The notes under the pieces are model-generated. The model had not been told where the DNA came from. It ran no database searches and was given only the letters and a program-made list of their open reading frames with translations. From Candidatus Izemoplasmatales bacterium (GTDB lineage Bacteria; Bacillota_I; Bacilli_A; Izemoplasmatales; Hujiaoplasmataceae), in NCBI GenBank assembly GCA_028699855.1, contig JAQVTV010000011.1, positions 1 through 14,659 on the forward strand: 14,659 nt of DNA, in the 5' to 3' direction. Positions 705 through 14,659 of the stretch are shown here, in pieces (position 1 is the first letter of the stretch; each line of letters opens with the position of its first letter). A program made the position numbers and the translations under genes.

Positions 705-1307
705 ATGCCAAAAGCATTCACAAAACCACAAAAGGAAATGATCGAAGCACAGCTCATTCAGGCGACCATGGTTCGGCTCAACCGTTTGGATGAGGAAAAG
801 TTGACAGTGGATCAATTGGTACGGGATGTGGGAATATCCAAAGGCGCTTTCTATCTCTTTTTCGATTCAAAAGAGGCTTTGATCTTTCGTACCATCGTTT
901 CGATTCACGATCGTGTGGAAGGCGAAATGCTTTCATTGATACATGAAAATCACACACAAGATCAAAAGGCTCAATTCATCGACATCATGAATACCTTGTA
1001 TGCTTCCGTTCAAGAAGCGCCATGGCTTTTGAAACTTGAGGGTACGATGTATCAGGATCTCGTCAAAAAAGTCGACCATAATGCATTGGATGCACATCTG
1101 GAGAGAGATCAGGAAATGACACGACGTCTCATGGATAACTTTGGAATCAAAGACTGTGATGAAGCCATCTTGTCCGCGCATATGCGAGCGATATTCATGT
1201 TGCTGCTACACAAAAAAGAAATCGGGGAAGCCTATTTTGACATCGTCGTCTCTCAACAAATTTCCTGGCTTGCAGATGCACTTTTCGGGAGGAAATCAGA
1301 TGATTGA
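705..1307 (+). CDS. TetR/AcrR-family transcriptional regulator
   Basis: This 200-residue protein is of normal TetR length. The N-terminal DNA-binding region holds the family helix-turn-helix at about 33-52 (LTVDQLVRDVGISKGAFYLF), followed by FDSKEAL, the usual TetR continuation. The C-terminal two thirds is helical and is the expected ligand-binding and dimer part; it does not point to a ligand. The start is set by AAGGAGG (693-699), five bases before the ATG. The stop overlaps the ATPase start at 1300 by eight bases, so the genes are translationally coupled. It most likely represses this operon through the inverted repeat at 666-693 and is released by a compound that the transporter exports. 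The target and ligand are inferred. Confidence 0.92.
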   Translation: MPKAFTKPQKEMIEAQLIQATMVRLNRLDEEKLTVDQLVRDVGISKGAFYLFFDSKEALIFRTIVSIHDRVEGEMLSLIHENHTQDQKAQFIDIMNTLYASVQEAPWLLKLEGTMYQDLVKKVDHNALDAHLERDQEMTRRLMDNFGIKDCDEAILSAHMRAIFMLLLHKKEIGEAYFDIVVSQQISWLADALFGRKSDD

Positions 1308-2169
1308 TATCCGTGGACTGAATTTCAGTTATCACAAAACACCTGTCATCAAAGACATGAATCTCACGATTCATACAGGTGAGATTTTCGGACTTCTCGG
1401 GCCTTCAGGCGCAGGTAAGAGCACAGTCCAACGCATCATGATCGGATCGTTACGGACATATGAAGGTTCTGTCCGGCTTTTCGACAAGGAAGCCAGGGAT
1501 TTACGGGATCGGGACTATCATCAGATTGGCGTTCAACCTGAAGTGCCGCAGTTTTATACTAAATATACCGCCATGGAAAACCTCACGTTTTTTTCATCCA
1601 TGTATCAAGCGGTAGAGGTGGATATCCCATATTGGGTAAAGCGTGTGGGGTTGGAGGCGGATATCCACAAGCGTGTCAGCGATTATTCCAAAGGCATGAA
1701 GACACGGCTCAATTTCATTCGCGCACTGCTCCATCATCCGATCATCCTGTTTTTGGATGAACCGACGAGCGGTCTGGATCCCATCAATCAGAAAATCATC
1801 AAAGACATCATCCATGAGATGAATGCCTTGGGAGTCACGATCGTCATCACGACCCATAACATGAAAGACGTGGAAGATTTGTGCCACAGCATCGCGTTTA
1901 TCAACCATGGAAAAATCTTGGCTCAAGGGCCGATCCATGAGTTTCTTCATACCTCGCCTGTACACCACATCCGCGTGGTGGTTGAAGCGGGCGGGTCGTT
2001 CAAGACTGAAGTAGTGGAACTGAGACAACTGTTTACAGATAAATACAAAGATTTATCCGAGCAGCACATGATCCGTTTGATCCAATCGGATTCTTCGAGT
2101 CTGAATGATGTCTTCATTCGCTTGGCGGGAGAAGGAGATGATGAGGGTGCTCAAAAATCTGAAGAATGA
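1300..2169 (+). CDS. ABC transporter ATP-binding protein (export/ABC-2 type)
   Basis: This 289-residue nucleotide-binding subunit would drive the two following membrane proteins. Visible motifs are Walker A GPSGAGKST (34-42), a Q-loop at Q79, the signature region YSKGM (129-133, a relaxed LSGGQ typical of ABC-2 exporters), Walker B ILFLDEPTSGLDP (149-161) and an H-loop His at 186. A C-terminal extension of about 100 residues follows, common in drug, antibiotic and lipid exporters. The start at 1300 is chosen over an in-frame ATG at 1141 because GGGAGGA (1287-1293) sits six bases before it and because residue 1 onward matches the family. It overlaps the regulator upstream and the permease downstream. 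The substrate is not readable; similar TetR-ABC-permease sets are annotated as drug (fluoroquinolone-like) exporters. Confidence 0.93.
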   Translation: MIDIRGLNFSYHKTPVIKDMNLTIHTGEIFGLLGPSGAGKSTVQRIMIGSLRTYEGSVRLFDKEARDLRDRDYHQIGVQPEVPQFYTKYTAMENLTFFSSMYQAVEVDIPYWVKRVGLEADIHKRVSDYSKGMKTRLNFIRALLHHPIILFLDEPTSGLDPINQKIIKDIIHEMNALGVTIVITTHNMKDVEDLCHSIAFINHGKILAQGPIHEFLHTSPVHHIRVVVEAGGSFKTEVVELRQLFTDKYKDLSEQHMIRLIQSDSSSLNDVFIRLAGEGDDEGAQKSEE

Positions 2170-2824
2170 TTTTCGCTTTTTCTATCAGTATCGCATTTTG
2201 CATGTGTATGTCCTCATTCTGCTTTTCTATTGGTTTCTGCTTTCCATCTTCGATGGCGAGATGCTCGTGATCCTCAAACGTGCGCTTCTGTTCAGCGAAC
2301 CCATCGTCCTCGGTTTCTTCTTTATGGGCGGTATCTATTTGATAGAAAAGCAAGAGGGCATCATCGACATGATGTTGGTGACGCCGAGAAAGATATTCCA
2401 TTACTTTCTCGCCAAACACCTCGCATTTCTGTGTGTCGGCATCGTCCTGGGCACGATCATCAGCCTCATCCGCACCCGTGATTTCTCATTCGGTCTGATC
2501 TTGACCTTGTTTTTGGCCAACGTGCTTTTCACATCGTTCGGAATCTTGGTTTCGCTCAAAGCGCAAAACGTCAATCAATACATTATCCTCAGTCTCGGCT
2601 TTTCGTTCCTGCTTGTGATTCCCTTCGTGTTGATGATTCTCTTGGGCAATCCATTCTATCTGATCTACCATCCCTTTGGGCTCATTTACTTGCTGGCGAT
2701 TCATCCGTTTGTCGTTATTCCGTATGCGGAGGGATGGTTATGGCTCTTGTTGGCATCACAAGTGGTTGTGATGTTTCTTTTGATCTATCGCATCTTTTCA
2801 AGACATGTGAGGTTCGGAAGATGA
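2138..2824 (+). CDS. ABC-2-like transporter permease 1
   Basis: This protein of about 228 residues is very hydrophobic, with about six membrane spans: near LHVYVLILLFYWFLL, the VLGFFFMGGIYL segment, FLCVGIVLGTIISL, LILTLFLANVLF, a long LGFSFLLVIPFVLMILL and a final WLWLLLASQVVVMF. The EKQEGIIDMMLVTP stretch after the second span is the cytoplasmic segment seen in fluoroquinolone-export-type permeases, where it contacts the ATPase. ATG codons at 2138 and 2141 both follow the purine-rich GGGAGAAGGAG (2127-2137); either may be the start. The gene overlaps the ATPase end by about 30 bases, and its stop is shared as ATGA with the next gene. It should form a heterodimeric channel with the next protein. 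Confidence 0.85.
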   Translation: MMRVLKNLKNDFRFFYQYRILHVYVLILLFYWFLLSIFDGEMLVILKRALLFSEPIVLGFFFMGGIYLIEKQEGIIDMMLVTPRKIFHYFLAKHLAFLCVGIVLGTIISLIRTRDFSFGLILTLFLANVLFTSFGILVSLKAQNVNQYIILSLGFSFLLVIPFVLMILLGNPFYLIYHPFGLIYLLAIHPFVVIPYAEGWLWLLLASQVVVMFLLIYRIFSRHVRFGR

Positions 2825-3534
2825 GCACCGTCAGGATATTCATCAACCATTCCATCAGAATGATTTTCAAAGATCCCATGTTGATCCTGCTCCTTGTGTG
2901 TCCGTTGCTGATTGCCTTTGTCTTCAAGGCGGGAAATGAGATTTTGGCACCTGTTTTGATGGATGCCTATGCTTTTGATCTGAGCCCATACCATGCATTC
3001 ATTGATTTCTTTGTCCTGTTTCTCGGCAGCATGATGATGGGTGTCGTGACCAGTTTTGTGTTGATTGATGAGAATGACGAGGGCGTGAGTCGCTATTATG
3101 AGATTACCCCGCTGGGCAAGAAGCGTTATCTCATGTATCGCATCGGTATCCCGTGGATGATCTATACCATCGAGTTCTGTCTGATTTCCGTTTTCGGGTT
3201 GCTTGTTCGGCCGAGCTTCGGAGAAATCTTCTTGCGTTATCTTTTCGCGATATCACAACTTCTTTTTTGCGGGCTTCTTGTTTTGGCGCTTGCTAAAAAC
3301 AAGTTGGAAGCCTTGGTGGTTGCGAAGCTGGTAGGGCTCATGGTGGTTCCTCTCATTGTTCCTTTGTTCATCGAAGCACCCATCACCTATGCTTTGATCC
3401 CGTTCCCGGGATTTTGGCTGGGAAAGGGTCTGCTTCTTGAGGCGGATGATTATCTTCTATATGCGTTGATCATGGGAACGATGTTGTCCTTATGCTATGC
3501 GTGGGTCCTCTATCGGAGGGCCTTTCGTAGCTAG
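2821..3534 (+). CDS. ABC-2-like transporter permease 2
   Basis: This 237-residue membrane protein begins at an ATGA overlap with the previous stop, which argues for coupled translation and equal amounts. About six spans are visible, including MLILLLVCPLLIAFVF, the FFVLFLGSMMMGVV segment, a span around YTIEFCLISVFGLLV, LLFCGLLVLALA and the C-terminal ALIMGTMLSLCYAW. Between spans two and three, DENDEGVSRYYEITPLGKKRY parallels the EKQEG...TP loop of permease 1, so the two are paralogous halves of one exporter. A longer frame opening at 2734 lies inside permease 1 and is rejected. No clear terminator follows; the toxin-antitoxin operator begins nine bases after the stop. Confidence 0.85.
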   Translation: MSTVRIFINHSIRMIFKDPMLILLLVCPLLIAFVFKAGNEILAPVLMDAYAFDLSPYHAFIDFFVLFLGSMMMGVVTSFVLIDENDEGVSRYYEITPLGKKRYLMYRIGIPWMIYTIEFCLISVFGLLVRPSFGEIFLRYLFAISQLLFCGLLVLALAKNKLEALVVAKLVGLMVVPLIVPLFIEAPITYALIPFPGFWLGKGLLLEADDYLLYALIMGTMLSLCYAWVLYRRAFRS

Positions 3535-3594: not shown

Positions 3595-3622
3595 GTAATC
3601 ATATTTGATGAGAGGTAAGATA

Positions 3623-3961
3623 ATGCCTGACCCTGTGGTTACTTTTCTCACGAGAACAAAACGGCTCATTCGTCTGGGTCGATGCCGTTTTGAGAGCCGT
3701 CAATATCCAGACGGCAGGGATTACTTAACCGTTCTTACGGAAGATTTCATGATTACTGTCGCACATGCTTGGGAGCAGATATCTCGTTTGACACAACACC
3801 TAGTTGTGTGTGACGGAAAGCCGGATTATGAAAAGGATGCGGATACATATGTATTCAAGAAAACAATTAACAGCGTCGTGGCATATATAAAGATAAAGAT
3901 CGAACATGACAGCCATGGAGAAGTAGTTGTAGTGATCTCATTTCATAAAGATGATTATTGA
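3623..3961 (+). CDS. MqsR-like type II toxin (predicted mRNA interferase)
   Basis: This 112-residue protein has the MqsR/RelE-like layout: an N-terminal helix (FLTRTKRLIRLGR, 8-20), a middle LTEDF (38-42), a strand block and a C-terminal YIKIKI (88-93) followed by VVVISFH (102-108). E. coli MqsR has the matching YLK and IVSF strands, and Y88 here aligns with its catalytic Tyr81; its Lys56, Gln68 and Lys96 are not clearly kept (SFHK here versus SFKE there). The family cuts mRNA; the cut site cannot be read here. The start at 3623 is chosen over TTG/ATG at 3605/3608 because GAGAGGT (3610-3616) lies six bases before it. The antitoxin follows after 21 bases, and toxin-first order matches mqsRA. 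The family is likely, the activity inferred. Confidence 0.7.
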   Translation: MPDPVVTFLTRTKRLIRLGRCRFESRQYPDGRDYLTVLTEDFMITVAHAWEQISRLTQHLVVCDGKPDYEKDADTYVFKKTINSVVAYIKIKIEHDSHGEVVVVISFHKDDY

Positions 3962-3982
3962 TCTGTAGGAAGGTATAAGAGG

Positions 3983-4951
3983 ATGAACGAAATAGTATAT
4001 TGCGATATTTGTCACGAGCGGACAGATTCTTTTGTTACAACAATATTGCAGGAATTTCATATCAATAAACAATCGATAACAGTCCCGATCCCGGGCCGTT
4101 TTTGCTCGATATGCCATAGTAGAGTGTATGATTCCGAGCTTGATCAAGCCGCAAGTGAAGCTGTCATTTCCGCATACGGAGAGAAGTTTGGATTATCGGG
4201 TTCGGACATCGTTCGTTTTCGCAAGAAGTACAAGCTGAGTCAGGATATGCTTTGTAAATTCATCGGAATTGCCAAAAAGACATTGATCAGCTATGAGAAG
4301 AATCAAGCGTTGCCGAATGCCCATTATCGTCAATTACTCAAGTCGGTCATTGAGAATCCTGATATCTTATTCACGTTCGCCAAAAACACGGATATCCCGT
4401 TAACAACCAAGGAAGAGAAGAAACTGGAAGATATCCAGGAAATGGAGACGAGTTCTCAACCAGAAATCAACCAATATACGGGTTATACAGCATTCTCTTT
4501 ACCTAAATTGACACAGATGATTCTTGCCTTATCGTCGAAAAAGATTTCTTTGACGCGACTCAACAAAGGCCTGTTTTTCGCGGACTTCAATTATTATCAT
4601 GATACTGGCAGATCAATTACAGGAAATCAATATTATCGATATGACCACGGTCCGATTAACACAGATTTATATCAAGTCATGACGAAGCTCGTCGAAGACG
4701 GGTGGGTGAATGTAGAGAAAGTTGCATTTCATGGAGAGATGATCTCGATGTATGAAGCGGCGGATTATCCGGATTATTCATTGTTTTCCGAGACCGAGAA
4801 GCGGATCATCAAGGCGGTTGCGCGTTATATCAGGAATAATAACGCGGAGCAGGTTTCTGATGCCTCGCATCAAGAGATTGCATGGACGGACACTGAACCC
4901 TACGCGCCCATATCTTATGAATATGCCAAGAATATCAAAATGACTTTTTAA
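3983..4951 (+). CDS. Hybrid antitoxin: MqsA-like zinc finger + HTH + SocA/Panacea domain
   Basis: This protein has 322 residues in three parts. Residues 1-50 hold two CxxC pairs (C7/C10 and C41/C44), the zinc-binding layout of MqsA/YgiT-type antitoxins. Residues 75-125 are an Xre-type helix-turn-helix (IVRFRKKYKLSQDMLCKFIG, then SYEKNQALP). After a charged linker, about 170-310 is a SocA-like/Panacea (DUF4065) domain, with LTRLNKGLFFADF and YYRYDHGPINTDLYQVM as its recognisable core. Panacea domains are known to neutralise several unrelated toxin families; MqsA domains bind MqsR and DNA. The expected role is to bind the toxin at 3623 and repress the operon via the palindrome 3543-3556. AGGAAGG (3967-3973) is nine bases before the ATG. 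Base composition is notably AT-rich. Which domain neutralises the toxin is not readable. Confidence 0.85.
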   Translation: MNEIVYCDICHERTDSFVTTILQEFHINKQSITVPIPGRFCSICHSRVYDSELDQAASEAVISAYGEKFGLSGSDIVRFRKKYKLSQDMLCKFIGIAKKTLISYEKNQALPNAHYRQLLKSVIENPDILFTFAKNTDIPLTTKEEKKLEDIQEMETSSQPEINQYTGYTAFSLPKLTQMILALSSKKISLTRLNKGLFFADFNYYHDTGRSITGNQYYRYDHGPINTDLYQVMTKLVEDGWVNVEKVAFHGEMISMYEAADYPDYSLFSETEKRIIKAVARYIRNNNAEQVSDASHQEIAWTDTEPYAPISYEYAKNIKMTF

Positions 4952-5068: not shown

Positions 5069-5106
5069 CCTGAACTCAGTTATACTTCATGAGTTCAGGC
5101 TTTTTT
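5069..5106 (+). terminator. Perfect 10-bp hairpin with T-tract; terminator or attenuator
   Basis: CCTGAACTCA (5069-5078) pairs perfectly with TGAGTTCAGG (5090-5099) around an 11-base loop, and CTTTTTT follows (5100-5106). It stands 117 bases after the antitoxin stop and ends directly at the GGGAGG ribosome site (5107-5112) of the next gene. It is the only convincing terminator for the toxin-antitoxin transcript, yet it also sits in the leader of the lipoprotein gene, so an attenuator role is possible. Confidence 0.7.
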
Positions 5107-5118
5107 GGGAGGCACATC

Positions 5119-5691
5119 ATGAAACACATCAAAGCATTGCTCATCATCATCCTGTGTGTGATTGCGATCATGGCATGTTCGGCGCAAACGACAGATTGGA
5201 CGAACTCACCCACTTCGTCCACCACGACCATCAATTTGACTATCTCGTCTAGTCAAGATCATCAAAGTCTGTCTCCCAGCACCCTCGGGCCTACCGTGAC
5301 GATGGCTCCGACCGATGATGGAACCGATGCCCGCACGAGTTCTCCGACATCGACGCTTTTACCGCCGATTCTGACATCAGTTCCCTTACCCGAAACTGCC
5401 ACTATTCCTTCTGGAATGACACCAACGACTGCGCGGTACCACTTTTCGTATGCGATTGTGATTCCTGCGCTTGAAGACGTGATTCTGGATTTGAGCACGA
5501 CCGAATCCGTCATCTTCGAATTGATTGATTATTCGGGGATGAATGTGCATCCTGCATTCTACCAGATTTCCGGAACGAACGTCACCTTGACGGCCATATT
5601 TTTGTCGCTACATCAAATTGAAACGTATATCTATTACCTCGGAACTGATCGGGGAACCATCCAAATTGATTTGTCTTTCGTCGGAGAATAG
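5119..5691 (+). CDS. Small lipoprotein with Ser/Thr/Pro stalk and one X2-like domain
   Basis: This 190-residue protein has a lipoprotein signal peptide: Lys-rich N-terminus, hydrophobic core (LLIIILCVIAI, 7-17) and a lipobox MAC with the lipidated Cys at 20. Residues 21 to about 100 are a low-complexity Ser/Thr/Pro/Asp stalk. The last 85 residues are beta-strand-rich (YHFSYAIVIPALEDVILDL ... GTNVTLTAIFLSLHQIETYIYYL ... GTIQIDLSF) and follow the same strand order as the two repeats of the gene ending at 579, suggesting a shared X2-like fold. It should be anchored on the outer face of the membrane. The start at 5119 has GGGAGG six bases before it; the longer frame from 5089 would spoil the signal peptide. 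Partner and function are unknown; the similarity is judged by eye. Confidence 0.8.
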   Translation: MKHIKALLIIILCVIAIMACSAQTTDWTNSPTSSTTTINLTISSSQDHQSLSPSTLGPTVTMAPTDDGTDARTSSPTSTLLPPILTSVPLPETATIPSGMTPTTARYHFSYAIVIPALEDVILDLSTTESVIFELIDYSGMNVHPAFYQISGTNVTLTAIFLSLHQIETYIYYLGTDRGTIQIDLSFVGE

Positions 5692-5801: not shown

Positions 5802-7820
5802 ATGAAAGATATACTTAGAGAATTTCTCAACGAACACGCATTCACATTCGCCTTTTTTGATCCGAAAGACGTCATTTTTCGTTTGGAATATAGAGAAAAA
5901 TGTGCGATGAATGTATGCGGTCGCTACAAGACATCCTGGTCGTGTCCGCCTGCGATCGAATCGGCAGAATCCATGATTCGTCGACTTCAGAGTTATCCTG
6001 AAGCCTTGGTGTTTTCCAAAGTCTATCCTTTGGAAGATCCATATGATTATCCTTCCATGGAAAAAGCGCTTCAAGATATCATGAAGCAGACGCTCATGCT
6101 GCAAGAGCGTTTGGTTCACGAACACTTGCGAGGTCAATATGAGATCCTCGCTTCCGGTAGTTGTATGATTTGTGCCAAATGCACGTATCCGGATCAACCG
6201 TGCCGTTTTCCCGATAAGATGCTCATTTCCATGCAAGCGCTCGGACTAGATGTGGCGGATTTGGCCAATAAAGTCCAGATGACGTATTATCAAGGACCCA
6301 AGACAATCACGTATTTTGTGACGGTTTTCTTTCACCCCGAAGGCATGATTCCAGTAGAAGTGATTCATGAACAGACCCGCACATGGCTTTTTGGCGAACG
6401 AGACCAGACCATTCTTGATTTGCTTCAGAGGAACCGCTATTTCATCGAAAGCCCGTGTGGTGGAAGAGGTGTATGCGGCAAATGTGATGTCATCGCAGAC
6501 GGTGTCGTCGTCAAAGCCTGTCAGACCCAGATAAGGCCGAAGCAAGTCTTGCATACAAAGAAGGCTGCGGCTTATGGCATCACCGATTTTGGCAATGAAT
6601 CATGGACTGGAAAAAAGCAGAAGGGATTTGGACTTGCCCTTGATTTGGGTACGACCACCCTGGCCTTTTACCTCGTCGATTTGGAAAAACAACGCGTCAT
6701 CGATGTCACCTCCATCCAAAACGACCAAAGCATCTACGGCGCGGATGTCATTTCGCGAATCAAGGCGGCGATTTCCGGACATCGCGAAGATTTGCACCAA
6801 AGGATCATCCAACAGATTGAACACATCATATCGCTTTTTTGCACGAAGCATCCAATCATGACCTTATCCCGCCTCGCAGTGACGGGGAATCCGACGATGC
6901 TCTATCTATTGCTCAATCTCGATCCCTCATCTTTGGGCTATGCGCCATACCACGCCCCTTTCCAAAAGTTTGATCCGGTCTCGGGGAGGAGTTTGGGTTT
7001 ATCCGTTCAGACAGTCCAGGTGGCACCGATCCAAAGCGCCTTTATCGGATCCGATGTCGTCATGGGCGTCATCGCTTCAGGGATGACAGAGGATAAAAGT
7101 GCGTTATTGATCGATTTGGGCACGAATGGCGAGATCGTCCTCACACATCGAGACGCATGGTTCGCCACATCCGCTGCCACGGGGCCCGCGTTTGAAGGAG
7201 CCACGATTGAAATGGGCATGGGCGGTGTTGACGGAGCGATCAATGCTTTGATGCAAGACGCGGGACGCCTGTCCTATACCACTGTCAGTGGCGAAGCCAA
7301 AGGCATCAGCGGTTCGGGATTGGTGGACTTCATGGCAATATTGATCCAAAACGGGATGGTCGATGAGAGCGGGGCGATTACCCCACAAACACATCCCGAT
7401 ATCCGATTCTCCGATGATAAAGTTTATATTACAAAAGAAATTTATATCACTCAAAAGGACATCCGCCAGTTTCAACTGGCCAAAGCGGCGATTCACGCCG
7501 CGATATTGCGGATTTTGGAGCATGCAAATTGCGATGTCGATGCGATCGAGCGCGTGTATCTCGCCGGCGGCTTCGGCTTCTATTTGAATCAGGATCACGC
7601 CTGCATCACCGGGTTACTCCCGCGAACATTCAAAGGAAAAATCGTCTCGGTCGGCAACACTTCTGGCAAAGGCGCGATCCAGCTCCTCATCGATCCCGAT
7701 CGCATGTCGTTGGCAGAAGCACTCTGCGACCGGATACAATCGATCGATCTGGCACAGGATGTGAGATTTTCACAGATGTTTGTGGATCAGATGGGCTTTA
7801 CAGCAGAAGGAGATGAATAA
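5802..7820 (+). CDS. RACo-like reductive activator of corrinoid proteins with N-terminal DUF2284 domain
   Basis: This 672-residue fusion protein has three parts. Residues 1 to about 185 are a Cys-rich DUF2284-type predicted metal-binding domain: C34, C39 and C48 in the CGRYKTSWSCPP region, plus a ferredoxin-like set C121-x2-C124-x2-C127-x6-C134. Residues about 195-250 are a plant-type [2Fe-2S] ferredoxin site, C219-x5-C225-x2-C228-x11-C240. From about 275 to the end is the ASKHA ATPase fold of RACo proteins, with the phosphate loops DLGTTT (281-286) and LIDLGTNGE (around 440), GPAFEGA, SGSGLVD and a late AGGFGFY. RACo uses ATP and low-potential electrons to reduce inactive Co(II) corrinoid to Co(I). 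AAGGGGTG (5789-5796) precedes the ATG by five bases. A corrinoid protein is encoded two genes downstream, supporting the role. The extra DUF2284 part may be a second electron entry (inference). Confidence 0.88.
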   Translation: MKDILREFLNEHAFTFAFFDPKDVIFRLEYREKCAMNVCGRYKTSWSCPPAIESAESMIRRLQSYPEALVFSKVYPLEDPYDYPSMEKALQDIMKQTLMLQERLVHEHLRGQYEILASGSCMICAKCTYPDQPCRFPDKMLISMQALGLDVADLANKVQMTYYQGPKTITYFVTVFFHPEGMIPVEVIHEQTRTWLFGERDQTILDLLQRNRYFIESPCGGRGVCGKCDVIADGVVVKACQTQIRPKQVLHTKKAAAYGITDFGNESWTGKKQKGFGLALDLGTTTLAFYLVDLEKQRVIDVTSIQNDQSIYGADVISRIKAAISGHREDLHQRIIQQIEHIISLFCTKHPIMTLSRLAVTGNPTMLYLLLNLDPSSLGYAPYHAPFQKFDPVSGRSLGLSVQTVQVAPIQSAFIGSDVVMGVIASGMTEDKSALLIDLGTNGEIVLTHRDAWFATSAATGPAFEGATIEMGMGGVDGAINALMQDAGRLSYTTVSGEAKGISGSGLVDFMAILIQNGMVDESGAITPQTHPDIRFSDDKVYITKEIYITQKDIRQFQLAKAAIHAAILRILEHANCDVDAIERVYLAGGFGFYLNQDHACITGLLPRTFKGKIVSVGNTSGKGAIQLLIDPDRMSLAEALCDRIQSIDLAQDVRFSQMFVDQMGFTAEGDE

Positions 7821-7823
7821 TCG

Positions 7824-9122
7824 ATGAATGTGCGCGTCAGTCCCTATGCGTTGAGTCAAGTCCTCGATTTGAAGGATCTCGAACAGTTGTTCAGCCATTT
7901 CGCGAACCTGACAGGAATCGATGTGTCGCTCCATGACACGGAAGGCGAAGAAATCCTCGCCTATCGCATCCAAGGCGACAACAACATTTGCGAACTCGTG
8001 AAATCACGCCAATCCAACTGCAATCTGCAGATGAAATATGCCGGGTTTAAAGCCGCTGAACTTGGGGATGCGTATATTTTTCAATGTGGTACGATGGTCA
8101 AATGTTCTGTCCCAATCCTGTTTGAAGAACGCTATCTCGGATCGGTTGCCTGTGGACCTGTTCTGCTTTGGGAAGCTGACGAAATCGCCCGGAACGACCT
8201 CGTGCGGTTCGCGGCGAACTACGATATCTCTGAAGCGAAGGCGTATGAGATTCTTGAATGCGTGAAGGAACTCACACCCGAAAACATGCGCAGTGCAGCG
8301 CAAATGCTTCAGGTCATGGTCTCGTACATGTGTAAAGAGGAGAGCATTTTCCTGCAACAGCGCGCGAAGATCTCGACCCAACAAAACAAGATCGCCGATC
8401 TGATGGCGGAGCGGAGAATCACTGCGCAGTCGATCGAGACGCTCGAGAAGCGCAACAAGTTCAAGAAATACCCCTTCGAACTTGAAAAGGAACTGATCGC
8501 GTTTTTGCAAACGGGCGATACGAAGAAAGCCATGGAAATTCTGAATTCGCTCTTAGGAGAGATTTTTCCCCTTTCTTCGGGGAATCTCGACATCATCAAA
8601 GCCAACATCTACGAGTTGACGGCCGTGTTGATGCGTGCCGGCGTCGATGCGGGCGTATCCTTGACAGAAATGAGTCAGATTCTCAAAAAAGTCACGATCA
8701 TTCTCGCGGAAACGACGCAGTACGACGAAGTCTGTCTCTTGACGACCGAAGTCATGGAAGAGATCAACCGCGTCATTTCCAATAACCGTTTCACGAAGAA
8801 AAGCAATGAGAACCTCATCAACGCGATCAGTTATATCCGCAACAACTATCAACACGATTTGAGCTTGGACACCGTCGCGAAATCCGTCTTCGTCAGCAAC
8901 TACTATTTGTCCCACCTCTTTCGCGACGAACTGAACATGACGTTCAGCGACTATGTGAACAAAGTCAGAATGGATGAAGCGATCAAACTGATGAAGGCAT
9001 CCGGACGAAGCATCCAAGAGATCGCCCAACGTTCGGGATTCGCGGATGCCAGTTATTTCACGAAAATCTTCAAGAAATATCACGGTATTACGCCCAAGAA
9101 GTATATGAGTCTCTATTTTTGA
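7824..9122 (+). CDS. PocR-domain AraC-family transcriptional regulator
   Basis: This protein has 432 residues. Residues about 10-165 form a PocR-type sensor domain (starting LDLKDLEQLFSHFANLTGID), with Cys at 56, 66, 88 and 94 in the usual Cys-rich core and CSVPILFEERYLGSVACGP as a family-like signature. Residues 170-215 are Gln/Lys/Glu-rich, probably a coiled-coil linker. The last 100 residues carry two AraC helix-turn-helix motifs (LDTVAKSVFVSNYYLSHLFR and IQEIAQRSGFADASYFTKIF). PocR is named after the propanediol/cobalamin regulator of Salmonella; related regulators often sit beside B12-dependent pathways. It begins three bases after the activator stop, with GAAGGAG at 7806-7812, and is followed by a terminator. 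The likely target is the promoter at about 9208, which lacks a -35 and so should need an activator. The ligand is unknown. Confidence 0.88.
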   Translation: MNVRVSPYALSQVLDLKDLEQLFSHFANLTGIDVSLHDTEGEEILAYRIQGDNNICELVKSRQSNCNLQMKYAGFKAAELGDAYIFQCGTMVKCSVPILFEERYLGSVACGPVLLWEADEIARNDLVRFAANYDISEAKAYEILECVKELTPENMRSAAQMLQVMVSYMCKEESIFLQQRAKISTQQNKIADLMAERRITAQSIETLEKRNKFKKYPFELEKELIAFLQTGDTKKAMEILNSLLGEIFPLSSGNLDIIKANIYELTAVLMRAGVDAGVSLTEMSQILKKVTIILAETTQYDEVCLLTTEVMEEINRVISNNRFTKKSNENLINAISYIRNNYQHDLSLDTVAKSVFVSNYYLSHLFRDELNMTFSDYVNKVRMDEAIKLMKASGRSIQEIAQRSGFADASYFTKIFKKYHGITPKKYMSLYF

Positions 9123-9123
9123 C

Positions 9124-9149
9124 AAAAGCCGGGTCAACGGCTTTTTTTT
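9124..9149 (+). terminator. Rho-independent terminator after the regulator gene
   Basis: AAAAGCCG (9124-9131) pairs perfectly with CGGCTTTT (9138-9145) around a six-base loop, and the T-run continues to 9149. It begins two bases after the stop at 9122 and splits the activator-regulator unit from the corrinoid-methyltransferase unit. Confidence 0.88.
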
Positions 9150-9247: not shown

Positions 9248-9883
9248 ATGATCTTGGAAGAAATCAGTCAACTCTTACAAAAAGGCAAAGCCAAAGACGT
9301 CAAACTGCTGGTTCAAGAAGCTTTGGACCAAAATATTGCGCCTCAGGCGATCTTGAATGATGGCTTGATCAAAGGCATGAGCGTGATCGGCGGCAAGTTC
9401 AAAAACAACGAAGTTTTTGTCCCCGAACTGCTCGTGGCGGCAAGAGCGATGAACTTCGGTCTTGAGATTCTTCGGCCGGCGTTAGTCTTGGCGGGAAACA
9501 AATCTTTGGGTAAAGCATTGATCTGCACCGTGATGGGCGATTTGCACGATATCGGAAAAAACCTCGTCAAGATGATGCTCGAAGGCAGCGGGATCGAAGT
9601 CCTCGATCTGGGCGTCGATGTCAATCCTGAAACGATCATCAACCATATCAATTCCGAGCAACCCGATCTTCTGTGTCTCAGCGCACTGCTCACGACGACG
9701 ATGATGAATCAAAAGATCATCATCGACGCCATCACCCAATCGGGATTGCGCGACAAAGTCAAGATATTGATCGGTGGCGCACCGGTCACGGACAATTATG
9801 CTCGTGAAATCGGCGCGGACGGATATGCGCCGGATGCCGCGAGCGCTGCGGAGATGGCACTCGCGATGTTGGGAGCGAAATAA
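9248..9883 (+). CDS. Corrinoid (B12-binding) protein of a methyltransferase system
   Basis: This 211-residue protein has the usual size of MtaC/MtbC/MtgC-type methyl carriers. Residues 1 to about 85 are the helical cap domain (KGMSVIGGKFKNNEVFVPEL is its hallmark). Residues 88-211 are the Rossmann-like cobalamin domain with DLHDIG (98-103), where His100 is the lower cobalt ligand, then SALLTTTM and GGAPV as the Ser/Thr and Gly-rich cobalamin contacts. It carries a methyl group on cobalt between a substrate methyltransferase and an acceptor methyltransferase in the cytoplasm. AAAGGATGG (9232-9240) precedes the ATG. The methyltransferase starts one base after the stop, a strong sign of partnership; the activator at 5802 would keep its cobalt active. 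The substrate is not given by the sequence. Confidence 0.95.
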   Translation: MILEEISQLLQKGKAKDVKLLVQEALDQNIAPQAILNDGLIKGMSVIGGKFKNNEVFVPELLVAARAMNFGLEILRPALVLAGNKSLGKALICTVMGDLHDIGKNLVKMMLEGSGIEVLDLGVDVNPETIINHINSEQPDLLCLSALLTTTMMNQKIIIDAITQSGLRDKVKILIGGAPVTDNYAREIGADGYAPDAASAAEMALAMLGAK

Positions 9884-9884
9884 G

Positions 9885-10964
9885 ATGTTTCGCGATATCC
9901 ACGACTATAAACCTGATATCGACCAAGCCTTCAAAGCCAATCACGATCTCTATGAGGCCGCATGGAAGAAACAGACCGGAAACATCAGTTTTCGGGTTTT
10001 GCCTCCATCGGATGTTTCATTCTATCAAGAAATCGACTTGACGAGCTTCACCTTCCCCCAGGATATTGAACGCTATGCCGCGACACTGATCGACAAGTTG
10101 GACCAATCATACATGGCACGCCGAACCATCGATGACAACTGCCTGCCGGCAGTGTTTCCGATTTTGGGCATCGGCGATTACAGCGCTTTCGTTGCCGGCG
10201 ACATCATCTTCAAACCCGATACCAGCTGGGGACAACATGTCCTGAAAGACATTGATGATTGGCGGAATTTACCGCCTCTTGGCACGAGCAAGTGGTATCA
10301 GTTGTTTCTGGACATCTCCGAAGCTTTGATCATTCTGAGCAAAAAGCAAGGGATTCCCTATATGCGCGGATTTTTCTCGCCTTTGGATCTGGCGCATGCT
10401 TTGCGGGGGGAAGATATCTACTATGATTTTTATGATGAGCCGGAGAAACTTCATGAGCTCCTGAATTATTGCGCAGACGCGACGATCCATTTCGCAGAAT
10501 CGATTTATGCGTTGGTGCGAAAACACTATCATGATACGCCTTACGGCACGTGGTACACGCGCAATCAGATCAATATGTCCGAAGATATCGCATGCATGAT
10601 CAGCGCTGATACGTACCGTGAATTCTGCCGTCCGCATACCCAACGCGTCATCAATCACTTCGGGTCGGGCTATATGCATTGCCATTCACGGGCGATGTAT
10701 CTCGTCAAAGAGATCTGCGACTTGGACAATGTCGTCCATCTTTGGCTGGCGACCGATCCCAATCAACCCCGGCCGATGGATCATATCGAGATGTTGCAAG
10801 CAGCGTCGAACGGTGCCGTCATCGCGATCGATTGCGATTCTTTTTCGGAGATTGAAACGCATTATGCCTCTTTGAAAAAAGGCAACTTTTCTCTGTGCCT
10901 TCCGGTGGCTTCGATCGAAGAAGGCGAAGATATGGTTCAACGTTTCAAGCGACTGAACGACTGA
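9885..10964 (+). CDS. UroD-family cobamide-dependent methyltransferase, atypical
   Basis: This 359-residue protein has the uroporphyrinogen-decarboxylase fold as used by MtaA/CmuA-type methyltransferases; the SEDIACMISADTYREFCRPH segment (232-251) and the C-terminal GNFSLCLPVASIEEG (333-347) are the clearest family marks. True UroD is unlikely because the N-terminal UroD catalytic motif is absent and the gene sits directly behind a corrinoid protein. The classical MtaA zinc motif HxC is not exact: here H265-C266-H267 occupies the place, with C317 and C338 later as possible metal ligands. It could take the methyl group from an O-methyl substrate or pass it from cobalt to an acceptor; no second methyltransferase is present to decide. 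The start at 9885 follows GGGAG (9871-9875); the longer frame from 9774 lies inside the previous gene. Confidence 0.82.
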   Translation: MFRDIHDYKPDIDQAFKANHDLYEAAWKKQTGNISFRVLPPSDVSFYQEIDLTSFTFPQDIERYAATLIDKLDQSYMARRTIDDNCLPAVFPILGIGDYSAFVAGDIIFKPDTSWGQHVLKDIDDWRNLPPLGTSKWYQLFLDISEALIILSKKQGIPYMRGFFSPLDLAHALRGEDIYYDFYDEPEKLHELLNYCADATIHFAESIYALVRKHYHDTPYGTWYTRNQINMSEDIACMISADTYREFCRPHTQRVINHFGSGYMHCHSRAMYLVKEICDLDNVVHLWLATDPNQPRPMDHIEMLQAASNGAVIAIDCDSFSEIETHYASLKKGNFSLCLPVASIEEGEDMVQRFKRLND

Positions 10965-10989
10965 TCATCCTATGTAAGGAGCGATTGAT

Positions 10990-13308
10990 ATGAAGCGTGT
11001 GTGTCTATTGTTCATCACCGTGATCCTGTGTGGTTTTTTTGCCATGGGTACACGGGCGCACGCAGAAGAGACACCGCATCTACGCATCTGGTTCTCGCAA
11101 TATGAAGCTGAAAACGAAGCATTGAGACGCATCGCCTCGGACTATGAGGCGTTGACGGGTGTTTCAGTCGAAGTCGTTTCGCGCATCAACATCTTCAATG
11201 CCGTGAGCGACCTCGTGAACAACGCGACGTTGGACACGAGGCCGGATATCGTCTTCATGCAGGCTCCGGATATCGGCACTTTGGTGGCGAGCGGGTATCT
11301 CGAACCCTTGACGCCTATGATCGATCAAGATATCAGAGACCGTTTCACGGAAGTGGCATTATCCGCTTTTCGTCTCGATGGCGAAATATATGGTGTCGGG
11401 TATTCCGTGGATTCATATGGTTTGATCTATAACAAAGATATCATTTCAGAAAGCGAATTGCCCGAGACGTGGGCCGACTTCTTTGCTTTAGCGGCCGAGA
11501 AGACGGTTTTCGATGGGGCGACTCCCGTCATTCACGGGGCATTGCTCAACGCCCGTGACATGTGGTTCAACTACCCCATCATCCGCAACTATGGCGGCTA
11601 CTATTATGGCACGTATCCCAACGGTGATTACAATCCCTATGATGTCGGCTTGGATCAGGCGGGGATGTTGGATTATGTAGCGAAAATGCAAGAGGCGATG
11701 GCGCAAGGAATCGTTTTGACCAACCGGATCCATGGCGAAAGCGAGATCGTATCCCGATTCGCCAACGGCAAAGTCGGGATGATGATCTATGGCTTGTGGT
11801 ACGCATCGATACTTCAGGAGCGGGGAATCGATTACGGACTCGCCTCGCTTCCGGATCAGGATGATGGCACGACGTCACGCGCATTGACAACGGTCCAAGG
11901 ATTCGTCGTCAATCGTTTCTCCCTTCAGCAAGCCCAAAGCCTCGATTTTCTGGAATACATCCTTGAAGATGCGAACCAACAGCTCTTGATCGAAGCGGGT
12001 AATGACCACGACAGAAAGCTCGGGACGCGCAACCCCGCGAACATCGCGGTCAGCCAAAGCGATTATATCCAATCCTCGGAGATTCTCTCGTCGTTGAGCG
12101 CGCTGAACGACGAAACCGAACCCTTCCCGAATCTGCCCGAGGGCCCCATTTGGTACAATTACACGACCACCGTCTTCCAATCGATCTTCTTCCCCTTGAG
12201 TGGTGCGGTCGATCCCGAGGCCAAACTCGGAGAACTCGCAGAGAAAATCAGAGATGATGTCCGCTTGATGAATCTGCAGGTCGAACGAATCGAAATCCCT
12301 TCCTACGTCTACATGATCATCTGTTTATTGATCGTCACCGGGTTGATCATCTATATCATCCGTGGTCGGATCCAAAACAAGAGATGTCCGAGTTATCTGC
12401 AAAAACCGCGTTGGAAACAGACATTGCTGGCTTGGGGACTCATCCTTCCCTTGATGGTGTTGTTGCTGGTGTTTTACGTCTATCCCATCTTCCATAACAT
12501 GTATCTTTCCTTGACCGATTACAGCGGCATCAATCTGAGAGAATACGGTCTCATCGGCTTCGCCAATTACCGCGATATCTTCGTCAAGGGTTTCCAAGGC
12601 TTGGTATCGATGAGTGTGTGGACGTTGAGTTTCGCGACCTGCGTCGTCGTGGTGTCGTTCATCTTGGGCGTGTTGATCGCCTTTATGCTCAAACAGTCGC
12701 ATGTGAAGATTGCGAAGATCTACCGCATCATCTTCATATTACCGTGGGTCATCCCCACGGTGATCACCTTGCTCATGTGGCAAGGACTACTGGAAACCGA
12801 AAATGGACTCGTCAACCAGATCCTATCCCTGATCGGTATTCCCCACATCCCCTGGCTTTCCCATCCATGGATTGCGAAAGTGTCCACGATCATGGTGATG
12901 ACGTGGTTTTCCTTCCCGTATTTCATGGTTATTGCCAGCGGTTTGATCCAGGCGATTCCCAAAGATTATTACGATGCGGCGAAAGTCGATGGCGCGAATG
13001 CGTTCTATACGTTCTTCTCGATCACTCTGCCCCTCGTCTTTCGGGCGATGATTCCCACGTTGATCATGTCCTTCATCATGCAGTTCAACCAGTTTGGCGT
13101 CTATATCCTGACCGGCGGCGGTCCGGCAGCCGATAAAATTGGCGATCCCGGAGCCACGGATTTGTTGATCACCTATGTCTTTAACACCGCCTTCAACACG
13201 AACCGCTACGCGGTGGCGGCGGCGTACTCCGTCTTGATCTTCGTGTTCATCGCGATCTTTGCCCTTCTGTCCATCAGAATCACGAGAAAGGTGGCGGATA
13301 ACGGATGA
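10990..13308 (+). CDS. Fusion of sugar-binding protein and MalF-type ABC permease
   Basis: This 772-residue protein starts with a signal peptide (residues 1-25, ending AHA before EE; no lipobox). Residues about 28-430 form a family 1 extracellular solute-binding domain (MalE-like: PDIVFMQAPDIGTLVASGYL, YGLIYNKD, WADFFALAAEKT). A membrane span at about 437-455 is followed by RGRIQNKR, so its C-side is cytoplasmic. Residues about 478-770 are a MalF/UgpA-type permease with about six spans and the EAA loop YYDAAKVDGANAFYTFFSITLP (around 660-681), which contacts the ATPase. Separate binding proteins are usual; a MalE-MalF fusion is described in Bdellovibrio. AAGGAG (10977-10982) precedes the ATG, 25 bases after the methyltransferase gene. 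The ligand is probably an oligosaccharide, inferred from family and from the glycosidase downstream. The ATPase is not in the window. Confidence 0.92.
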   Translation: MKRVCLLFITVILCGFFAMGTRAHAEETPHLRIWFSQYEAENEALRRIASDYEALTGVSVEVVSRINIFNAVSDLVNNATLDTRPDIVFMQAPDIGTLVASGYLEPLTPMIDQDIRDRFTEVALSAFRLDGEIYGVGYSVDSYGLIYNKDIISESELPETWADFFALAAEKTVFDGATPVIHGALLNARDMWFNYPIIRNYGGYYYGTYPNGDYNPYDVGLDQAGMLDYVAKMQEAMAQGIVLTNRIHGESEIVSRFANGKVGMMIYGLWYASILQERGIDYGLASLPDQDDGTTSRALTTVQGFVVNRFSLQQAQSLDFLEYILEDANQQLLIEAGNDHDRKLGTRNPANIAVSQSDYIQSSEILSSLSALNDETEPFPNLPEGPIWYNYTTTVFQSIFFPLSGAVDPEAKLGELAEKIRDDVRLMNLQVERIEIPSYVYMIICLLIVTGLIIYIIRGRIQNKRCPSYLQKPRWKQTLLAWGLILPLMVLLLVFYVYPIFHNMYLSLTDYSGINLREYGLIGFANYRDIFVKGFQGLVSMSVWTLSFATCVVVVSFILGVLIAFMLKQSHVKIAKIYRIIFILPWVIPTVITLLMWQGLLETENGLVNQILSLIGIPHIPWLSHPWIAKVSTIMVMTWFSFPYFMVIASGLIQAIPKDYYDAAKVDGANAFYTFFSITLPLVFRAMIPTLIMSFIMQFNQFGVYILTGGGPAADKIGDPGATDLLITYVFNTAFNTNRYAVAAAYSVLIFVFIAIFALLSIRITRKVADNG

Positions 13309-14138
13309 AGAAGTCACATCCTTTAGTCAAAAAAATATGTGTGCACACTTTTCTGATCTTTCTTGCCATCGTCACCATCACGCCGTTTGCCTACATCGTC
13401 ATGATCGCTTTTGGCAAGAACATCGTCGGCACGAGCGCAACGATTCCCAAAGAATTCACTTTGGCCAATTTTCAACGCTTGTTCCGCGAAACGGCTTTCC
13501 TCGACTGGATCAAGAACTCCTTGTGGATCGGACTCGTGACGATGATCATCTCCGTCGTTTTCGTGAGCATCACCGTCTATGCGTTCTCCCGCTTGCGTTT
13601 TCACGGCAAGCAGAAGTTGTTCCAGTTCATCCTTTTAGTGCAAGTCTTCCCGTTGACCTTGTCGATGGTCTCGATTTTCCGCATCTTCGTGACACTTGGC
13701 ATCCTCAATGATATCAAGGGTCTGATTATTGTCAATTCGACGTTGGCATCGGCCGGACTTGTGCTCCTGGCCAAGGGATATTTTGACACCATTCCATTCG
13801 AAATCGACGAAGCGGCGATGGTTGACGGAGCATCGCGACTGCAAACCCTGATCCATGTGATTCTGCCTTTGGCGAAACCCATGCTCGCTGTCGTCGCGAT
13901 CCAAAGCTTCGTCATCGCGTATAACGAATACGTCATTGCGTCGACCGTGATGACCCAAGGCCTCGACACGATGCCTTTGGCTGTAGGTCTCCAATCGATG
14001 ATCACAGGACAATACGGCACCAATTGGAGCATGTATTGCGCTGCGGCCTTGCTCGGTTCGTTACCGATGATCGTCTTGTTCTATTCATTGCAGAAGTATT
14101 TTATTGGCGGTATGACCGAAGGGTCGGTCAAGCTATGA
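13305..14138 (+). CDS. MalG-type sugar ABC transporter permease
   Basis: This 277-residue permease has six expected spans (TFLIFLAIVTITPFAYIVM first, MIVLFYSLQKYFIGGM last) and the EAA loop EIDEAAMVDGASRLQTLIHV, followed by ILPLAKP. The N-terminal FGKNIVGTSATIPKEFTLANFQRLF segment is typical of MalG/carbohydrate permeases. Its start overlaps the fusion-protein stop by four bases (ATGA), which implies coupled translation. It pairs with the MalF half of the preceding protein to form the membrane channel; the energising ATPase must be encoded elsewhere, as with shared MsmX-type ATPases of Bacillota. Confidence 0.93.
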   Translation: MKKSHPLVKKICVHTFLIFLAIVTITPFAYIVMIAFGKNIVGTSATIPKEFTLANFQRLFRETAFLDWIKNSLWIGLVTMIISVVFVSITVYAFSRLRFHGKQKLFQFILLVQVFPLTLSMVSIFRIFVTLGILNDIKGLIIVNSTLASAGLVLLAKGYFDTIPFEIDEAAMVDGASRLQTLIHVILPLAKPMLAVVAIQSFVIAYNEYVIASTVMTQGLDTMPLAVGLQSMITGQYGTNWSMYCAAALLGSLPMIVLFYSLQKYFIGGMTEGSVKL

Positions 14139-14148
14139 GGAGGGTGAT

Positions 14149-14649
14149 ATGATGGACACCTATATGATCATGCATCAACCCTACGGCCTCGATGCCTATG
14201 CCGTCTCATCCGATACGCTTCATATCCGATTGCGGGCGAAAAAGAGTGCATTCTTGCAGGTCGTCATCCATTATAAAAATCTATATGACCACACAAGTCC
14301 GCCCAAAGAAAAAGCCATGGACATCCTCTTGGATGATGGCGACAGTGTCCTTTATGAAGTCGCGATCCAAGTTCCCGAAAAGCATTTCAAATACTATTTC
14401 TCCCTCCATCGATCCATGCAAGAGCCTGTCTGTTTTACGGCTGATGGCATCATGAAAGCTGCATTGCCTTCCAACTATTTCTATTATCCGCAAATCAATG
14501 ATGATGATGTCATTTCGCTGCCTGAATGGGCAGAAGGTGCTTTAATCTATCAAATCCTCGTGGACCGGTTCTATGATCAAGACTCCCGAAACAACCCGCC
14601 CCACATTATTTTACATCTGACATCCATAAACAATTTCGGTGTGGTTTGA
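14149..14649 (+). CDS. N-terminal part of a GH13 neopullulanase/cyclomaltodextrinase-like enzyme, disrupted or cut
   Basis: The first about 120 residues look like the N-terminal beta domain (CBM34-like) of neopullulanase/cyclomaltodextrinase enzymes, which cut maltodextrins or cyclodextrins in the cytoplasm. The catalytic barrel then begins with LPEWAEGALIYQILVDRFYD (124-143) and QDSRNNP, matching the family pattern of Trp, YQI, DRF and a D/N-rich loop. After the CCCC run (14599-14602) the frame no longer looks like the family and stops at 14647-14649, although such enzymes usually exceed 500 residues. The window ends ten bases later, so a frameshift, a sequence error at a contig end or a chimeric end are all possible. 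AGGAGG (14138-14143) precedes ATGATG; the start may be 14149 or 14152. The gene follows the permease by 10 bases and should act on the imported sugar. Confidence 0.75.
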   Translation: MMDTYMIMHQPYGLDAYAVSSDTLHIRLRAKKSAFLQVVIHYKNLYDHTSPPKEKAMDILLDDGDSVLYEVAIQVPEKHFKYYFSLHRSMQEPVCFTADGIMKAALPSNYFYYPQINDDDVISLPEWAEGALIYQILVDRFYDQDSRNNPPHIILHLTSINNFGVV

Positions 14650-14659
14650 CAAATCGTCG

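Follow-up and report, generated by a model that had tools for sequence, protein, structure and literature searches.

A conserved cassette of corrinoid methyltransferase, oligosaccharide import and GH13 genes suggests O-demethylation of methylated alpha-glucans

A gene cassette common to several groups of uncultured, oxygen-avoiding bacteria brings together a corrinoid methyltransferase system, an oligosaccharide importer and a GH13 enzyme, and its gene content suggests that the bacteria feed on methylated sugar chains by removing their methyl groups. We understand it, with a probability of about 0.62, as a catabolic unit for O-methylated alpha-glucan that would couple import, corrinoid O-demethylation and, more tentatively, transfer of the methyl group to a thiol. 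The steps, in the order that we infer, would be the following. A surface lipoprotein with starch-binding-like modules would hold the glycan, and a fused MalE/MalF protein together with MalG would import oligosaccharides, using an ATPase encoded elsewhere; the GH13 enzyme, acting inside the cell, would cut alpha-glucosidic bonds; with sugar methyl ethers as donors, UroD1 (and probably UroD2 as well) would methylate the Co(I) of the corrinoid protein, RACE keeping that protein in its reduced state; UroD3, whose part would fall to a UroD-thioredoxin fusion in other lineages, would pass the methyl group on, most likely to a thiol, and the demethylated sugar would be fermented.

Gene layout in the window and beyond its end

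The window, by which we mean the whole stretch of DNA analysed, covers 14,659 nucleotides of a single contig (JAQVTV010000011.1, assembly GCA_028699855.1) from a Candidatus Izemoplasmatales bacterium (Hujiaoplasmataceae). The cassette starts upstream of position 9248, and the window ends within the GH13 gene, the cassette being carried onward by another contig of the same genome, C182. The features are:

5802–7820, + strand: RACE, reductive activase of the corrinoid protein (PF14574, 3e-65; PF17651, 5e-40; PF10050, 7e-39)
7824–9122, + strand: PocR-domain AraC-family regulator (PF10114, 3e-27; HTH_18, 1.8e-23)
9124–9149, + strand: hairpin followed by a U run in the gap between the regulator and corrinoid protein genes (stem 9124–9131/9138–9145, −11.1 kcal/mol)
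9248–9883, + strand: corrinoid protein (PF02607, B12-binding_2; PF02310, B12-binding)
9885–10964, + strand: UroD1, proposed methyl:corrinoid protein methyltransferase (MTI; weak URO-D match, E 1.4e-6)
10990–13308, + strand: MalE-type binding protein and MalF-type permease fused in one chain (SBP_bac_8, 1e-31; BPD_transp_1, 1e-17)
13305–14138, + strand: MalG-type permease (BPD_transp_1; NCBIfam MalG PRK10998, 1.5e-44, below cut-off)
14149–14605, + strand: 5′ portion of a gene for a cyclomaltodextrinase/neopullulanase-type GH13 enzyme (PF02903, Alpha-amylase_N, 2.5e-19)
14480–14605, + strand: overlap with the start of C182 (126 identical bases, same-genome contig match)
14606–14659, + strand: contig tail of 54 bases without match to C182, creating an apparent GH13 stop

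An earlier note on this DNA had placed the corrinoid protein, the UroD-like methyltransferase (here UroD1), the sugar-binding/permease fusion, a second permease and a GH13-like gene in that order on the same strand, with gaps of 1, 25, −4 and 10 bases. Re-reading the window gave the same layout, the figures assuming that UroD1 starts at the ATG at 9885 and not, as in the ORF list, at the GTG farther upstream (9774). The accompanying claim that no terminator separates the genes holds for the gap between UroD1 and the fusion (10964–10990), where a simple pattern scan found neither a terminator-like nor a promoter-like site, and where AAGGAG lies ahead of ATG and folding is little better than in shuffles (z −0.84). 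Against it, the same scan lists terminator-like patterns (9976–9995 and 10821–10838) and a promoter-like one (10038–10067) within the UroD1 gene. Over the whole window the scan gives 23 terminator-like sites where shuffled sequences lead one to expect 13.2; for promoter-like sites the count is 22 and the expectation 22.1. Upstream, the regulator gene begins 3 bases after that of RACE and is followed by the hairpin at 9124–9149 (z −2.58, with 4 of 200 shuffles equally good), which by its predicted fold is likely to be a terminator; it is absent from the list of the simple scan.

RACE comprises DUF2284, a 2Fe-2S region, a RACo middle domain and the RACo C-terminal ASKHA domain, and is split into two adjacent ORFs in most relatives. 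The translation of the corrinoid protein contains DLHDIG (9539–9556), which fits the cobalt-ligand motif DxHxxG; its NCBIfam matches, MtgC_2 (1.7e-62) and the cognate corrinoid family TIGR02370 (2e-57), are both below cut-off, and in the PDB it matches 1y80 (5e-61), 7xcn and 3ezx. Judged from sequence, a two-domain corrinoid protein with DxHxxG and a RACE encoded alongside are the predicted parts of a corrinoid-dependent system.

On the sugar side, the fusion matches PDB chains of MalF (1e-43) and of the maltose-binding proteins MalE1 (4e-34) and MalE2 (7e-33). The GH13-like gene of the earlier note is indeed there, but of its protein the window encodes only the N-terminal Alpha-amylase_N domain and the first part of the catalytic one. 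The continuation on C182 (L108:3-1355) matches Alpha-amylase (1.9e-60) and, below cut-off, the NCBIfam cyclomaltodextrinase model (2.5e-87), and carries the motifs YRLDVADE, IGEIW and GSHDT; the enzyme thus pairs an N-terminal Alpha-amylase_N domain with a catalytic domain that has Asp/Glu/Asp. Read by eye, it has no obvious signal peptide. The stop at 14647–14649 probably marks the end of the contig and not of the gene, since it sits in the last 54 bases, which mismatch C182; truncation by a genuine stop was rejected on that ground. Sought in the loci fetched to that point, the tail was not found, and it may be an assembly branch or a strain variant.

On C182 the catalytic part of GH13 is followed by the lipoprotein, UroD2, UroD3 and the start of an esterase. 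The lipoprotein has Pfam matches below cut-off only. Its model, made from the protein of a relative (locus L017, pLDDT 86.4) and not from the window genome's own, resembles the starch-binding modules of SusF, X25 Sca5, SusE and pullulanase X25. The similarity is confined to individual modules, so that whole-length TM-scores are low and do not exceed 0.28 when taken by query length. The predicted fold thus resembles the starch-binding surface type (SusE/SusF/X25), and the sugar side is narrowed to a probable alpha-glucan.

Conservation of the cassette among genomes

A GTDB scan produced 32 loci, in records of Bacillota, Tenericutes and Thermotogota, with UroD1 identities of 48–73%. The pairing of the UroD-like protein with a sugar transporter, on which the earlier note had made its case depend, is conserved in them: in 31 of them UroD1 is the gene immediately before the fused transporter, and in the remaining one it belongs to the same cluster. 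All 27 loci extending past the fusion gene have MalG and GH13. Of 29 GH13 sequences, a set that excludes shorter matches and eight of the listed loci, 6 fail a coarse motif pattern; when read, all six have the region-II Asp and region-III Glu, and five the region-IV Asp. The sequence without the latter, at locus L025, is cut by a contig end.

The corrinoid protein lies within the fetched locus in 16 of the 32 loci and RACE in 15, the genes being elsewhere farther off or on another contig. Genome-wide, RACE was found in 32 of the 33 carrier genomes; one carrier (G048) shows neither corrinoid protein nor RACE, and another (G059) has a weak corrinoid protein match only. Among 34 genomes of the family, one and the same set of 8 carries UroD1, RACE and a close corrinoid protein, a coincidence of probability 1/C(34,8) = 5.5e-8 if kinship is ignored. 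A close transporter (at least 61%) occurs in this family only in those 8 genomes and in G028. The latter carries part of the cassette.

The gene before UroD1 in other loci is TrmB-like (12) or LacI-like (4), each call resting on similarity to one Pfam-scanned member. A 13th locus, L039, has a TrmB-like gene located elsewhere.

The UroD paralogues and the fate of the methyl group

UroD1 scores above the Pfam gathering score of the UroD superfamily (PF01208) and has the predicted UroD fold, with a single weak NCBIfam match. Its invariant residues are H265 (10677–10679), H267 (10683–10685) and D291 (10755–10757), and the H-x-H motif is kept in all 121 relatives. In three joint alignments this motif stands opposite the H-x-C of UroD2 and UroD3, with a gap at the third Cys. 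C338 (10896–10898), near the third-ligand position and Cys in 92 of 121 relatives, was rejected as the third Cys ligand on account of that gap. UroD1 appears therefore not to be of the His-Cys-Cys type. UroD-type O-demethylases likewise have zinc ligands other than His-Cys-Cys, or no zinc, a permissive feature and no proof. Profile comparison links UroD1 to UroD3 with 91.5% probability and to UroD2 weakly (2.5%); in disagreement with the three joint alignments, the comparison with UroD3 shifts the ligand motif by one residue, C266 falling on the Cys. Against the PDB, the UroD1 profile had no match at E 0.001 and only unrelated chains when relaxed to 10, leaving CdmB (9rui), which is in the set, unmatched; among the best 50 structural matches there was no characterised O-demethylase or CdmB, an absence that does not count as evidence. 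A plasmid search gave one distant UroD match (30.6%). By its sequence, UroD1 is too distant from any characterised UroD enzyme for its substrate to be named; we would expect it to bind zinc and to act on a sugar methyl ether.

The ligand positions of UroD2 are, like those of UroD1, altered as compared with the MtaA type, so that neither keeps the S-type set. The UroD2 profile had no PDB match at E 0.001 and a marginal one to MtaA (E 0.0017) when relaxed. UroD3 carries the S-type His-Cys-Cys ligands; it resembles the soluble CoM methyltransferases MtaA and MtbA in this ligand pattern and in its best PDB match, 4ay7, a good MtaA match, and differs from them in that its NCBIfam matches to MtaA/MtbA-type models fall below the cut-offs. 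UroD3 or the UroD-thioredoxin fusion is present in 11 of the 19 loci with more than 9 kb fetched on the right, and genome-wide in 31 of the 33 carriers.

Where, then, would the methyl group go? A CODH/ACS match exists in one of the 33 carriers and in none of the other 32; PF00809 is present in 13 and absent in 20, and a folate route by way of an MtrH-type (PF02007) methyl-THF transferase is conceivable. On these counts an acetogenic fate was set aside, and the methyl sink is likely not acetogenic; more tentatively, the methyl group would be transferred to a thiol acceptor.

Candidate donors of the methyl group and what a glucan would mean

The proposal of the earlier note, that an O-methylated sugar or glycoside loses a methyl group after import, is partly supported and remains the best reading: the transporter pairing is conserved, the gap 10964–10990 shows no terminator-like or promoter-like site, the corrinoid protein and RACE co-occur with UroD1, and the glycan is probably an alpha-glucan. 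The known UroD-type O-demethylases MtvB, OdmB, VdmB and MtoB have methoxylated aromatics as substrates in the available parts of PMC13222342 and PMC8630106, and those of related UroD systems are, in the portions seen, haloalkanes or sulphur and selenium compounds. The cassette shares with the former a UroD-fold MTI, a two-domain corrinoid protein and an ATP-dependent activase and, with the Mto operons as far as the accessible text of PMC8630106 describes them, transporter genes nearby. It is conceivable, if unlikely, that the methyl donor is not a sugar but an aryl methyl ether, betaine or methanol, and that the corrinoid system and a plain maltodextrin operon have only their regulation in common. 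The aromatic substrates just named would fit this, as would the best model of the corrinoid protein, the glycine-betaine MtgC (below cut-off), and the regulator in the window, which has a PocR sensor and not one of sugar type. Against this, UroD1 keeps its place directly before the sugar transporter in 31 of the 32 loci from Bacillota, Tenericutes and Thermotogota records, with TrmB-like or LacI-like genes ahead of it in part of them; no MttB- or MtaB-type gene appears among the annotated recurrent neighbour families, many single ORFs being unannotated; and CODH/ACS has a match in one of the 33 carriers. From the aromatic systems, which include a methyl-folate transferase, the cassette differs in having a maltodextrin-type importer, GH13 and a starch-binding-like lipoprotein in place of aromatic transporters, and in that 20 of the 33 carriers have no PF00809 match and 32 none to CODH/ACS.

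Rather less probable is a role in methyl-sulphur or methyl-selenium metabolism, the sugar genes supplying energy only. The type 1 mlp cluster of C. ljungdahlii, in the part of the account available (PMC10418091, Kountz and Balskus 2023), has three Mlps, a corrinoid protein and RACE, which is the inventory found here: several UroD paralogues, one of them (UroD3) with His-Cys-Cys, one corrinoid protein and one RACE. The three Mlps of such a cluster are related to SCMTs and have that site, whereas here only UroD3 keeps it and matches MtaA well, the neighbours are glycan genes, with the glucan-binding-like lipoprotein and GH13 recurring, and no methionine, sulphur or selenium gene is among those annotated. 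Slightly more doubtful still, UroD1 could be another TIM-barrel enzyme that acts on a sugar and is no methyltransferase, leaving the corrinoid system to UroD2 and UroD3; its great divergence fits this, as does its position beside transporter genes in all 32 loci when the corrinoid protein is there in only half of them. That chance alone assembled these neighbours around an ordinary maltodextrin operon, of which GH13, MalE/F/G and a starch-binding lipoprotein are ordinary parts, is very improbable and was set aside given the gene order conserved at such UroD1 divergence and the distribution of the close transporter.

Demethylation of an alpha-glucan thus remains our preferred reading. Like maltodextrin and cyclodextrin operons (MalEFG with GH13), the cassette has an importer, GH13, a starch-binding-like surface protein and, in many loci, a TrmB- or LacI-like regulator; unlike them, it fuses the binding protein to MalF and builds in corrinoid methyltransferase genes. 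Searches of the open-licence literature found no report of corrinoid or anaerobic demethylation of sugars and, for Izemoplasma with corrinoids, Mesotoga or Izemoplasma with methylated polysaccharide, and methylated glucan use, nothing on the cassette. Directed at alpha-glucan, it would add carbohydrate methyl ethers to the substrates of UroD-type corrinoid O-demethylases.

The known oxygen-dependent route uses cytochrome P450; the cassette would offer an oxygen-free removal of a protecting group from polysaccharides. As the cassette also occurs in small genomes without a CODH/ACS match, the corrinoid methyl system may be a deblocking step and not part of C1 metabolism. That anaerobic glycan breakdown has this form, corrinoid O-demethylation deblocking methylated alpha-glucans and the methyl group being discarded onto a thiol instead of feeding folate or acetyl-CoA synthesis, we put forward as a tentative and rather doubtful proposition. 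By analogy, a candidate substrate for such deblocking would be the mycobacterial 6-O-methylglucose lipopolysaccharide (MGLP), which has an alpha-1,4 backbone, 6-O-methyl and terminal 3-O-methyl groups and short-chain acyl esters: the backbone would suit GH13, the two methyl positions the two O-type UroD proteins, and the esters the PF00756 and SASA esterases.

Gene layout and continuation beyond the contig end

The assembly holding the window amounts to 1.34 Mb in 242 contigs, is 68.5% complete, and has the window as its entire contig C20. The genes that concern us are these:

5802-7820, RACE-type corrinoid activase (RACE)
7824-9122, PocR-AraC regulator
9248-9883, corrinoid protein (CorP)
9885-10964, forward strand, UroD-like protein, proposed methyltransferase (UroD1)
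10990-13308, MalE-type binding protein fused to a MalF-type permease
13305-14138, MalG permease
from 14149, GH13 protein

The earlier note had described corrinoid, UroD, transporter and GH13 genes separated by 1, 25, -4 and 10 bases, and reading of the sequence together with Pfam finds them so arranged; the activase and the regulator, both upstream, belong to the same gene set. Because a hairpin and a U run part the regulator from the corrinoid-protein gene, a new transcription start would probably precede 9248 and serve the remaining cassette genes. Uninterrupted reading from UroD1 into the transporter, also proposed there, agrees with the 25-base gap, which contains a ribosome-binding sequence and where pattern scan and folding found nothing resembling a terminator or promoter; inside the UroD1 gene, the pattern scan does list such sites.

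The GH13 reading frame ends 10 bases short of the contig end. Positions 14480-14605 (126 bases) are identical to the start of contig C182 of the same genome, which continues through the GH13 catalytic domain and carries, closely spaced or overlapping, GH13, a lipoprotein, two further UroD proteins (UroD2, UroD3) and the beginning of a PF00756 esterase gene. As this overlap is accompanied by identical gene order in relatives, the contigs can be joined, and the full cassette would, as read from sequence, be RACE - PocR/AraC - CorP - UroD1 - MalE/MalF fusion - MalG - GH13 - lipoprotein - UroD2 - UroD3 - esterase. The final 54 bases (14606-14659) diverge from C182 beyond the overlap, and may reflect an assembly branch, a variant strain or an insertion that some of the population carries.

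Conservation and co-occurrence

A pattern scan across the GTDB genomes recovered 32 loci with 48-73% identity to UroD1, all from records labelled MAG or uncultured, seven being contigs also recovered by the family search. Named proteins among the nearest relatives of UroD1 come from Candidatus Izemoplasmatales. Carrier records are labelled Izemoplasmatales/Izimaplasma, Acholeplasmataceae, Mollicutes/Tenericutes, Haloplasma(taceae), Thermotogae/Kosmotogaceae, Clostridia and other Bacillota. The pairing of methyltransferase and importer noticed in the window holds in these relatives, and is a conserved system: the fusion gene lies directly 3' of UroD1 in 31 of the 32 loci, and in the exception, L039, UroD1 sits within the same cluster, between MalG and GH13. 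Five contigs stop within the fusion gene (L028, L030, L033, L034, L041); all 27 loci extending past it have MalG and GH13. Where the sequence runs on for more than 7 kb to the right, 20 of 21 loci have the lipoprotein; where it exceeds 9 kb, 17 of 19 have UroD2 (two weak, 35% and 26%) and 11 of 19 have UroD3 or a UroD-thioredoxin fusion. UroD1 mostly follows directly on a gene for a corrinoid protein or for a sugar-type regulator, with L026 and L039 as exceptions and L038 and L046 starting too near to judge; where the left flank exceeds 1 kb (27 loci), the nearest recognised 5' gene is CorP (11), TrmB-like (11), LacI-like (3), MalG (1) or glycogen phosphorylase (1). The distances obtained for UroD1, for the fusion, for MalG and for GH13 are correlated (r 0.69-0.91, n=24, eight incomplete or rearranged loci being omitted), values that kinship alone could produce. 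The fused chain (10990-13308 in the window) is kept in most cassettes, and appears as two ORFs in L028, L036, L039 and L043.

Eight of the family's 34 genomes, spread over 5 of 11 genera, carry UroD1, and exactly the same eight have RACE, a strong corrinoid-protein match (E below 1e-60) and the full-length fusion; weaker B12-binding-like matches occur in all 34, the best E outside the eight being 3e-14. Genome G028 holds an 82% fusion fragment alongside MalG, GH13, lipoprotein and UroD2 on a 5,940-base contig broken at both ends, so that the absence of UroD1, CorP and RACE there probably reflects incomplete sequence. Among the 33 carriers, 32 possess a corrinoid protein (31 strong, G059 weak) and 32 possess RACE, G048 having neither. 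Inside the fetched locus itself, they are present in 16/32 and 15/32, respectively; in G053 and G065 both share a contig with UroD1, at distances of about 12 and 14 kb.

Substrate and methyl acceptor

Since UroD1 adjoins the importer in 32 of 32 loci, sugar O-demethylation is our main reading for the cassette, with a probability of about 0.6. The earlier proposal that an imported methyl sugar is demethylated is partly borne out: the importer pairing holds, and the enzymatic step is one that we infer. That the methyltransferases belong instead to methyl-sulfur or methyl-selenium metabolism seems improbable; the third ligand position of UroD1 has no assigned residue, which tells slightly in favour of this rival and slightly against the main reading.

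The sugar handled is most likely an alpha-glucan. A SASA-type carbohydrate esterase lies between GH13 and lipoprotein at L035:14875-16170 and L047:13567-14862 (Pfam on L035), and a PF00756 esterase at the cassette end or nearby in other loci, which suggests that the glycan is acylated. MGLP, as outlined in PMC4555173, is an intracellular polymer of alpha-1,4 glucose/6-O-methylglucose with a 3-O-methylglucose end and short-chain acyl esters; this natural polymer would fit all parts of the cassette, as a speculative candidate substrate. At one Firmicutes locus, a GH38 alpha-mannosidase (L040:4306-7428) lies 5' of the cassette, with another UroD gene.

The methyl acceptor may be a thiol, given UroD3 and the lack of a CODH/ACS match in 32 of the 33 carriers; this is the weaker step in the argument. 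The one exception is G061, the genome of L043, where contig C212 also encodes a further RACE and a protein of PF00809. UroD followed by a C-terminal thioredoxin-like domain with CxxC occurs at L027:10647-12032 (Pfam on this member), L029, L035, L047 (the L035 and L047 copies incomplete), L067-L073 and L075-L077, in several loci close to a corrinoid protein and RACE. This protein is MtaA-like, with F-x-C replacing H-x-C, and may act at the methyl acceptor stage, using redox thiols that it carries itself.

Other genes of the window

Four further features precede the cassette:

1-579, surface-type protein with Thr-rich stretches and a weak CBM_X2 match (8e-5, below cut-off)
705-3534, exporter by appearance: TetR regulator, then overlapping reading frames for an ABC ATPase and two membrane proteins (Pfam scan of all but the second membrane protein)
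3605-4951, toxin-antitoxin-like pair by appearance: 118-aa ORF without Pfam match, then an MqsA-like (below cut-off) and SocA/Panacea protein
5089-5691, surface-type protein with Thr-rich stretches, without CBM_X2 match
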